From: an uncultured Verrucomicrobiota bacterium
GTDB lineage: Bacteria; Verrucomicrobiota; Verrucomicrobiia; Limisphaerales; UBA9464
DNA: 36,931 nucleotides
Assembly (NCBI GenBank): GCA_903896505.1
Contig: CAITXU010000056.1
Span: 1 to 36,931, forward strand
Reading direction: 5' to 3'
The notes under the pieces are model-generated. The model did no database searches. It had not been told where the DNA came from and was given only the letters and a program-made list of their open reading frames with translations. Position 1 is the stretch's first letter; every line of letters starts with the position of its first letter. A program made the translations under genes and the position numbers. This document shows, piece by piece, positions 34,615-36,856 of the stretch.

Positions 34615-34698
34615 GGGACTTGCAGGAGCGCATCCCTCCGGACGTAAGTCCCTCCGAAGGAGGGGCATCCAACGGAGGGACGCGCTCCCGCAAGTCCC
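34615..34698 (+). repeat. 84-bp inverted repeat with nested hairpin
   Basis: A 25-base left arm (34615-34639) and right arm (34674-34698) are inverted copies with 23 of 25 positions matching; the arms start GGGACTTGC and end GCAAGTCCC. The 34-base centre holds a second hairpin CCCTCC-GAA-GGAGGG (34650-34664). It has the size and symmetry of a REP/BIME or small MITE. No obvious target-site duplication was seen. Confidence 0.8.
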
Positions 34699-34858
34699 CA
34701 ATTACTGCCGGGATCATCCCCACTCCCAATCTAAAGGCACCTTTGTAGCGCGACTCCACCCCAGCCGTAGGCGGTCCAAATCACGCCGACCGCGTAATTC
34801 GGCTCAAGTTATATCCGGCCTGACTCCGGAGCGCCACAAGTGGAATGCTGCCGTTTCG

Positions 34859-35064: not shown

Positions 35065-36087
35065 TTAGTACGAAGCCTGTGCTCCCTTGGTCTGACGCTT
35101 CTGCATCCAGGGCATCATGGAGCGGAGCTTGGAACCGACCTTTTCAATAGGGTGGTTCTCGCCCTCTTTCAACAGAGCGTTGTATTGGGGATAGCCGCTC
35201 TGATACTCCTTCACCCATTGCTTGGCGAATTTGCCGGACTGGATGTTGGTCAAGGCCGCCTTCATCCGCTTCTTCACGGAGGCATCGATGATCTTTGGCC
35301 CCACGGACACATCGCCCCATTTTGCCGTCTCGGAAATCGAGAAGCGCATGCCGCTGATGCCGGCCTCATTCATCAGGTCCACGATGAGCTTGAGCTCGTG
35401 CAAGCACTCGAAGTAGGCCATTTCCGGGGAATATCCGGCTTCAACCAACACTTCGAATCCGGCCTGCACCAACGCGCTGGCACCGCCGCAGAGAACGGTC
35501 TGCTCACCAAACAGGTCGGTTTCCGTTTCTTCCTTGAAGGTGGTTTCCAGAACGCCGGCGCGAGTGCCGCCGATGCCCTTGGCCCAGGCAAGTGCCACTT
35601 TTTTCGCCTTCTTGCTCGGGTTTTGATACACGGCGATCAGGCTGGGAACGCCCTTCCCCTCGGTGTACATGCGCCGGACAATGTGTCCGGGACCTTTCGG
35701 CGCCACCAGAATGACATCGACCTCGGGCGGAGGAACGATGGTCTTGAAATGAATCGAGAATCCATGGCTGAAAATCAGGGTCTTCCCTTTTTTCAGGTTC
35801 GGGGCGATGTCCTTCTCATAGGCCGCCGGTTGTTTGGTATCCGGAAGGGCCACCAGAATCACGTCCGCCTTTTGAACGGCTTCCGCCGTCGAGTACACCT
35901 CGAAGCCCTTTTCCCTGGCTACGGCGATGGATTTGGAGCCTTCGTACAATCCAATGATGACGTGCGCGCCGCTTTCCTTGAGGTTGAGGGCGTGGGCGTG
36001 TCCTTGGGAGCCAAAGCCAAGCACGGCGAGGGTTTTGCCTTGAAATACGCCGAGATCAGCGTCCTTGTCGGTATAGATTTTTGCCAT
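35065..36087 (-). CDS. ilvC: Ketol-acid reductoisomerase
   Basis: A 340-residue class I enzyme. It converts 2-acetolactate or 2-aceto-2-hydroxybutyrate to the dihydroxy acids of valine, leucine and isoleucine synthesis, using NAD(P)H and Mg2+. The N-terminal Rossmann motif is G24-F-G-S-Q-G29, with 'GLYEGSKS' as the cofactor-specificity loop. His108 (FSHGF) and the metal ligands D191 and E195 (TDLFGEQ) are present. The knotted C-terminal domain is complete ([18 protein letters not shown]; 'SETAKWGD'). It follows ilvN by 59 bases on the same strand, so both are read from the attenuator-controlled leader. No Shine-Dalgarno site is evident. Confidence 0.97.
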
Positions 36088-36146: not shown

Positions 36147-36620
36147 TCAGTCGCGCGGAAGAGCCACCTGGCCGGTTCGAGTAAGATCGAGGAGACCAAA
36201 ATCCTTCATCAGCAGGAGGAACTTCTCAATTTTCGATTCACTCCCGGTCAATTCGATGGTCACCGATTTGGGCTGAACATCGACGATCTTACCACGAAAG
36301 AGTTCGGTGAGTTGTGCGACTTCAGCCCGGTTGTCCGAGTCGGCCTGCACCTTGAGCAAGACCAATTCCCGATCAATGTAATCGCCCCGGCGGTAGTTGG
36401 TCACCTTGACCACGTCGATCAATTTGGCCAGTTGTTTGCAAATCTGCTCGACGGTGGGGTCATCGCCCCGGGTCACGATGGTCATCCTTGAAAGGCTTGA
36501 ATCATGAGTGGGGGCGACATTGAGCGAGTCAATGTTGTAGCCGCGTCCGCTGAACAGGCCGGTGACCCGGGTCAGGACGCCGAATTTGTTTTCGACAAGG
36601 ACGGAGATGGTATGGCGCAT
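36147..36620 (-). CDS. ilvN: Acetolactate synthase regulatory subunit
   Basis: A 157-residue small subunit of acetohydroxyacid synthase. It binds the catalytic IlvB subunit and confers feedback inhibition by valine. An N-terminal ACT domain (residues 1-75: '[20 protein letters not shown]', '[13 protein letters not shown]') is followed by the typical C-terminal domain ([10 protein letters not shown]; '[14 protein letters not shown]'). The ATG at 36620 is at the conserved MRHTISV start; a start 19 codons earlier (36677) adds unrelated residues and would crowd the terminator. The catalytic partner ilvB, usually just upstream, is absent: the leader and attenuator are there instead, so ilvB must be elsewhere. 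Confidence 0.95.
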
Positions 36621-36695
36621 GATAACAGTTGGTGATTCGGGCGATGAGTCTTTTCCTGCTCCCGGAGGCGGACGCATCGCCCTGGCCAGCCCCCG

Positions 36696-36730
36696 AAAAT
36701 CAAAAACCCGCGTTCATTGAGAACCGCGGG
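36696..36730 (-). terminator. Intrinsic terminator (attenuator) of ilvNC
   Basis: Minus strand: CCCGCGGTTC, loop, GAACGCGGG (36730-36707), a 9-bp stem with one bulged G, then TTTTTG and TTTTC. It lies 34 bases after the leader stop codon and about 80 bases before ilvN. The 5' arm contains CCGCG, which can pair with CGCGG (36760-36764) directly after the leader stop codon, giving a possible antiterminator. Confidence 0.8.
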
Positions 36731-36764
36731 CGACTCGGAAGCCGGTGCAAAGCCGTCTGCCGCG

Positions 36765-36818
36765 TCAGCCCCCGAGGAGCCGTACTACGCTGCCAGTCAG
36801 CTTTCGCGCCGAATTCAT
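36765..36818 (-). CDS. ilv leader peptide (attenuation)
   Basis: A 17-codon ORF, MNSARKLTGSVVRLLGG, ending in TGA. It carries two adjacent valine codons (GTA GTA) and two adjacent leucine codons (CTC CTC), the regulatory amino acids of branched-chain synthesis. Stalling at these codons when Val- or Leu-tRNA is short would leave the segment after the stop codon free to pair with the 5' arm of the terminator and let transcription enter ilvN. A ribosome that reaches the stop would cover that segment and allow termination. There is no good Shine-Dalgarno site before the ATG. The peptide itself probably has no further role. Confidence 0.75.
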   Translation of the reverse strand: MNSARKLTGSVVRLLGG

Positions 36819-36827
36819 TTTTCTGGA

Positions 36828-36856
36828 ACTTAACGATTTGGGACAACCAGGGTCAA
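36828..36856 (-). promoter_or_regulatory. Candidate promoter of the ilv leader
   Basis: Minus strand: TTGACC (36856-36851), a 17-base spacer, then TTAAGT (36833-36828). The -35 is 5 of 6 to consensus and the -10 is weak. The start would fall about 3 bases before the leader ATG, a nearly leaderless leader peptide. It is the only plausible site found within the 113 bases available upstream. Confidence 0.3.

Follow-up and report, generated by a model that had tools for sequence, protein, structure and literature searches.

Amino-acid-responsive leader-peptide attenuation is known from Proteobacteria and Actinobacteria, and examples exist in Firmicutes as well. The ilv, trp, his and leu attenuators of Escherichia coli share their logic of stall codons, antiterminator and terminator with the element described here; their leaders have a 5′ untranslated region with a Shine-Dalgarno sequence, whereas the promoter geometry of the present element points to a probably leaderless leader. 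Attenuation of ilv genes by leader peptides is established in E. coli, Corynebacterium glutamicum and, recently, Mycobacterium tuberculosis (PMC10272879, PMC13236596, PMC11857589). The Corynebacterium ilvBNC leader (IlvL, ilvB-II motif) has a short open reading frame (ORF) of mostly 15–17 codons with the Val run MTIIRLVVVTARRLP, which lacks a ribosome binding site and whose start codon is one nucleotide away from where transcription begins, together with a terminator and an antiterminator (PMC11857589, PMC10272879). These features have counterparts here, a probable one in the case of the transcript start; however, the Corynebacterium leader controls ilvB-ilvN-ilvC from ilvB, whereas the present element lies before ilvN(C) alone, ilvB having a leader of its own, and phylum and sequence both differ. 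The M. tuberculosis ilvB1NC attenuator, which is backed by reporter evidence, likewise combines a branched-chain amino acid-rich upstream ORF, a GUA regulatory codon and competition between terminator and antiterminator (PMC13236596), but it precedes ilvB1, its leader is long (166 nt) and the phylum is a different one. The ilvB-OMG and Leptospira ilvB motifs also carry candidate upstream ORFs rich in branched-chain amino acids (PMC10272879, PMC8632094); these precede ilvB and have other structures, whereas the present element precedes ilvN and matches no Rfam family. A preliminary description of this locus had supposed that such leaders are little described in the lineage, and a search for papers on attenuation or leader peptides in Verrucomicrobiota found no relevant title in the open-access literature, to which it was confined, so that an earlier report is possible. 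Judged by comparison of genomes, the ilvN leader very probably represents a known mechanism in a new family and, as far as could be checked, a new phylum, distinguished by a probably leaderless leader, split control of ilvB and ilvNC, and an outer stem spanning the U-tract. It would extend leader-peptide attenuation to the Verrucomicrobiota through a compact system with clean covariation.

The stretch of DNA analysed, here called the window, is a contig of 36,931 nt from a 5.36-Mb draft genome, and the leader lies near the contig end on the minus strand. Sequence reading and corresponding leaders in relatives place the leader ORF, MNSARKLTGSVVRLLGG, at 36765..36818, with its ATG at 36818-36816, 17 codons, and a TGA at 36767-36765. 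The putative regulatory codons GTA GTA CGG CTC CTC (36774..36788) comprise a Val pair at 36788-36783 and a Leu pair at 36779-36774, an assignment drawn from the sequence together with the in-frame-only Val excess and strong GTA bias of relatives. Downstream of the TGA on this strand follow CGCGGCAGACGGC, a hairpin at 36730-36707, UUUUUGAUUUU, CGGGGGCUG, ilvN and ilvC, with CGCGG at 36764-36760 directly 3′ of the stop. The acetolactate synthase regulatory subunit gene ilvN (36147..36620, minus strand; Pfam PF10369, 5.6e-28, and PF22629, 4.4e-25) begins at an ATG at 36620, about 200 nt from the leader start, and is followed by the ketol-acid reductoisomerase gene ilvC (35065..36087, minus strand; PF07991, 2.1e-72, and PF01450, 1.9e-64), both being valine-pathway genes on the same strand as the leader. 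The parts listed in the preliminary description, namely a 17-codon ORF with GTA GTA and CTC CTC, a stop, CGCGG, and a hairpin with a T-run on the ilvN strand, are all present. A generic consensus scan of the window called neither a promoter nor a terminator at the leader, a probable consequence of the TTAAGT sequence of the -10 box and the bulge in the terminator stem. Compared with 200 shuffled sequences, the 155-nt region has the better fold in 196 cases (z -2.3), a modest result taken alone. The closest named relatives of the ilvN product come from Verrucomicrobiota genomes assembled from metagenomes, several of which bear the label Pedosphaera, Limisphaera or Verrucomicrobiales.

Alignment of the sequence upstream of ilvN in relatives, the check named in advance, found the leader ORF, stop and hairpin to be conserved. 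An ilvN gene is present in 44 of 50 genomes of the window's family, one of them a fragment at a contig start, and the array of short ORF, stop and hairpin lies upstream in 43 of the 43 usable loci. A covariance model trained on this family alone, with a structure limited to the leader-end hairpin and the inner terminator, was used to search the order and located the element in 105 of 320 genomes and 45 of 118 genera, at a single place in each genome except one, which has two partial contigs; strict filters were applied, and the count in the remaining genomes is therefore a lower bound. All 60 matches outside the family were retrieved, and in each of them ilvN follows the element; since the model knows nothing of the downstream gene, this position is independent support. 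Corresponding leader ORFs were found at the 43 family loci and at more than 50 loci elsewhere, while a class-wide sample of 384 genomes gave 26 matches, all within the same order. The element in front of ilvN is confirmed as real and conserved by this comparative evidence, which we regard as decisive, and with the array upstream of ilvN in 43 family loci and 60 others, the best reading of the locus is still the one proposed at the outset, a leader-peptide attenuator before an ilvNC unit that lacks ilvB. The covariance model also locates ilvN leaders in genomes whose annotation omits ORFs of this size.

The composition of the predicted peptides points to valine. The ORF is 16 or 17 codons long in 65 of 86 distinct leaders. 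In its frame 30.6% of residues are Val, compared with 2.7% and 1.8% for the two alternative frames; for Val, Leu and Ile together the values are 45% against 12% and 11%. The ORF finder used for loci outside the family favoured Val/Ile/Leu-rich frames when several were possible, so that the in-frame Val figure is slightly inflated, and in nearly all of these loci the leader start position after the promoter and the stop position are concordant. The dipeptide VV occurs in 74 of the 86 leaders and VVV in 43, and typical C-termini before the stop are RVVVVD, VVVVVVD and VGVVGND, the ending VVVVD being frequent. Codon choice is also distinctive: GTA accounts for 149 of 414 leader Val codons (36%) versus 4 of 146 in six ORFs of the window, whereas GTG accounts for 40 of 414 versus 59 of 146. 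The window's genus has a short Val run, GTA GTA, followed by the Leu pair CTC CTC. From these codon patterns, the regulatory amino acid across the lineage is taken to be valine and the Leu pair to be a trait of the window's genus, which amends the joint Val/Leu control first proposed. It is hardly credible that the product of the ORF is instead a small protein with a function in trans, for which the leader peptide peTrpL of Sinorhizobium meliloti provides a precedent (PMC7298713), as the leader sequences are widely divergent apart from their Val runs and this divergence indicates no conserved peptide under selection. At one locus (L013, the same place as L048), the promoter, the ORF MIPTGKAGRFRPKG and the hairpin are kept and all Val codons are gone, possibly through decay of the attenuator; this locus was left out of the family alignment of 38 distinct loci.

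Upstream of the window's leader, a -35 box TTGACC (36851..36856, minus strand) and a -10 box TTAAGT (36828..36833, minus strand) separated by a 17-nt spacer were assigned by sequence reading. The -10 box lies 9 nt from the leader start codon, and a transcription start 6–8 nt past it would leave a 5′ untranslated region of 1–3 nt. A TTGACC-like box, a spacer of mostly 17–18 nt and a -10 hexamer were found in 80 of the 86 distinct leaders, the -35 box being exactly TTGACC in 62 of these 80 and the -10 box in relatives being TAGCGT or another TAnnnT sequence. Since the start codon follows the -10 hexamer by 6–11 nt and a Shine-Dalgarno-like motif occurs in only five of the 86 leaders, the leader mRNA is probably leaderless or nearly so. 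A direct precedent exists in C. glutamicum, where transcription of ilvBNC begins a single nucleotide away from the leader-peptide start codon (PMC11857589), and some Verrucomicrobiota are reported to be scarce in Shine-Dalgarno sequences (PMC10783764).

Helices were examined by comparing the pairing of cognate and non-cognate arms, with permutation over 31 family or genus groups, an approach that avoids indel alignment artefacts and whose p-values are indicative only because the groups share ancestry. Four helices are supported by covariation in this comparison: the leader-end hairpin, the antiterminator 2:3a, the inner terminator and the outer stem 3a:4b. The leader-end hairpin H1 (GCUCC/GGGGGC; 36768..36780, minus strand) ends at the stop codon; three of its four pairs have changed on both sides within the family, and its cognate arms pair better than non-cognate ones (p 0.0002). 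Segment 2, CGCGGCAGACGGC (36752..36764, minus strand), follows directly after the stop, with GCG(G/A) at a nearly fixed distance from it in most relatives and a beginning 0–1 nt past it in most distinct leaders. Its predicted partner is segment 3a (36731..36744, minus strand), assigned by the permutation tests as a partner of both segment 2 and segment 4b. The resulting antiterminator, in which post-stop GCGRCCUG pairs with CAGGUCGC just upstream of the terminator, gave p 0.0016 with 24 of 31 groups in a refined test; a first version, in which the segments were long and the terminator was misplaced at a few loci, had given p 0.07, and the later value calls for corresponding caution. Compensatory changes include GCGACCUG:CAGGUCGC to GCGAUCUG:CAGAUCGC in group f6 and CCUGG:CCAGG to UCCGG:CCGGA in genus g3. 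A G-to-A change inside 3a in the window's sister locus L003 counts against the model. Fixed-column covariation of 2:3a in the family alignment alone was no better than in shuffles, probably because the segment carries indels, and plain RNAalifold on the same alignment gave an uninformative structure.

The antiterminator originally suggested, in which the post-stop CGCGG pairs with the 5′ arm of the terminator, is not conserved (permutation p 0.79, 11 of 31 groups) and was rejected; the 2:3a pairing is the stronger of the two in 75 of 86 leaders. The inner terminator hairpin 3b:4a, CCCGC(G)GUUC...GAACGCGGG (36707..36730, minus strand), has five nearly invariant lower pairs and a covarying upper stem (p 0.0002), and is followed by the U-tract UUUUUGAUUUU (36696..36706, minus strand). 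In relatives an interrupting GA is common in this tract, a mean of 7.4 T is found in the 10 nt after the hairpin, and a large clade, g7, has the weak U-tract CUUCGGUUCUG. Segment 4b (36687..36697, minus strand), which lies past the U-tract and forms the 3′ side of the outer stem, was assigned by its covariation with 3a; in the window the outer stem has 11 bp and -17.0 kcal/mol, and in the groups it shows the largest covariation effect of the element (p 0.0002, z -6.4). A conserved structured RNA ahead of an amino acid biosynthesis gene could also be a ligand-binding riboswitch or a T-box with which a short ORF happens to overlap, and ppGpp riboswitches control some ilv leaders elsewhere (discussed in PMC10272879). 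However, Rfam gave no match in the window at gathering score, nor any near the leader with E values as high as 5, the Val codons are confined to one frame, and no large conserved core extends beyond the ORF end and the hairpins, which makes such an RNA an extremely improbable explanation.

It is highly likely that ilvNC is governed by ribosome-mediated transcription attenuation, chiefly through charged valyl-tRNA. At the level of sequence, the leader ORF, the frame-specific Val codons, the spacing from stop to segment 2, the promoter and the covarying helices are shown to be conserved, and loci across the lineage combine Val codons, an intrinsic terminator, an antiterminator with an arm that a terminating ribosome would mask, and genes of the same pathway; from these we infer the transcription start, the ribosome stalling, the termination and the response to valine. 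Transcription would begin a few nucleotides upstream of the leader AUG, and ribosome loading would probably need no Shine-Dalgarno sequence. With plentiful valyl-tRNA the ribosome would reach the stop and cover segment 2, allowing the inner terminator to form and halt transcription before ilvN. When valine is short, it would stall upstream on the Val codons, leaving segment 2 free to pair with 3a, which would open the base of the terminator and permit read-through into ilvN-ilvC, after which 3a could pair with 4b beyond the U-tract.

This sequence of events was represented by an equilibrium calculation in which the ribosome covers about 14 nt downstream of the decoded codon and the stall is set at the first Val pair. 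The probability of the terminator base was 0.58 with a stalled ribosome, 0.95 with a ribosome at the stop and 0.87 without a ribosome, and a shift of more than 0.2 in the expected direction occurred in 56 of 85 leaders, with none as large in the opposite direction. Shuffling of segment 2 raised the stalled value to 0.79 (Wilcoxon p 9e-10). The 2:3a helix often overlaps the terminator stem by only 1–2 bp, and exclusion of the terminator is consequently partial in a static model. The window's own copy (L002), with its single Val pair, shows no switch (0.97 stalled versus 0.96 at the stop), whereas its congener L004 shows a full one (0.02 versus 0.99) and a strong one is also predicted for L010; the mechanism is therefore well supported for the lineage and weakly for the window copy, at least at equilibrium. 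A constitutive terminator or insulator with a chance ORF, and thus no regulation, would agree with the missing thermodynamic switch in the window and a hairpin stable in all states, but it is very unlikely in view of the frame-specific Val enrichment, the nearly fixed distance from stop to segment 2 and an antiterminator that covaries over 31 groups.

The position of the hairpin relative to ilvN bears on whether translation is also controlled. In groups f45, f49, f10, f38 and f25 the hairpin ends only 7–19 nt before the ilvN AUG (7–11 nt in f45 and f49), where it would hinder initiation, making an added effect on translation plausible in these clades, and the outer stem, although possible only in RNA that extends past the U-tract, has the strongest covariation of the element. 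Purely translational attenuation, or a combination with transcriptional attenuation in which the ribosome-controlled hairpin also hides the ilvN start in unterminated RNAs, nevertheless seems rather unlikely, as a long distance separates the hairpin end from the ilvN start in the window and in most relatives (median 78.5 nt) and a U-tract follows the hairpin nearly everywhere, as for a terminator. With similar reserve, and as a doubtful extension of transcription attenuation, a two-stage device can be imagined in which 3a is common to the antiterminator and the outer helix and, once the transcriptional choice has been made, translation or stability of the read-through mRNA is set by the outer helix or, where the clade is compact, by the terminator next to the ilvN AUG. 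If this were true, then together with a separate ilvB attenuator it would adjust how much regulatory subunit of acetolactate synthase is made relative to the catalytic one. At seven loci of f45 and f49 (L179, L185, L163, L169, L188, L191 and L204) the U-tract runs directly into the ilvN start codon, as in GCGGGCUUUUUUAUG.

In the window's genome ilvB is on another contig, unlinked to ilvNC, and among 80 ilvN loci from named genomes, with or without a leader, none has ilvB and 69 have ilvC downstream. This ilvB has its own upstream leader, MNAARVKLLLVVGGTATGGACRV ending at a stop, with a strong terminator (L045, about 1264-1390; G000:C80). In most family members the ilvB leader follows the pattern VVGGxAAxGTCRA before the stop and is succeeded by CCCACGGC...GCCGTGGG-U6. 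ACAAG, immediately ahead of the terminator, is a possible pairing partner for the codons of the shared GTCR-like C-terminus (ACUUGU), and the antiterminator arm of the ilvB leader therefore seems to lie inside the ORF. Rfam searches around ilvB gave weak matches only, far below gathering scores. As ilvB carries its own, different branched-chain amino acid leader and terminator, both units appear to be attenuated, by unrelated elements; with the acetolactate synthase subunits encoded apart, each with its own leader, the balance of catalytic and regulatory subunits becomes a testable question.

Some further features of these loci were observed. At L050, L053, L062, L072, L096 and L108 the ilvN leader is present, yet there is no ilvC within about 2.9 kb after ilvN. 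Where the ilvN leader is missing (L099, L103, L106 and similar), ilvN has a nearby promoter, and its AUG is immediately preceded by a very small hairpin, CCGUU..AACGG, with a U-run. In the window, a near-palindromic intergenic stretch, gggacttgcaggagcgcatccctccg...cggagggacgcgctcccgcaagtccc, lies 3′ of ilvC at 34615-34705.
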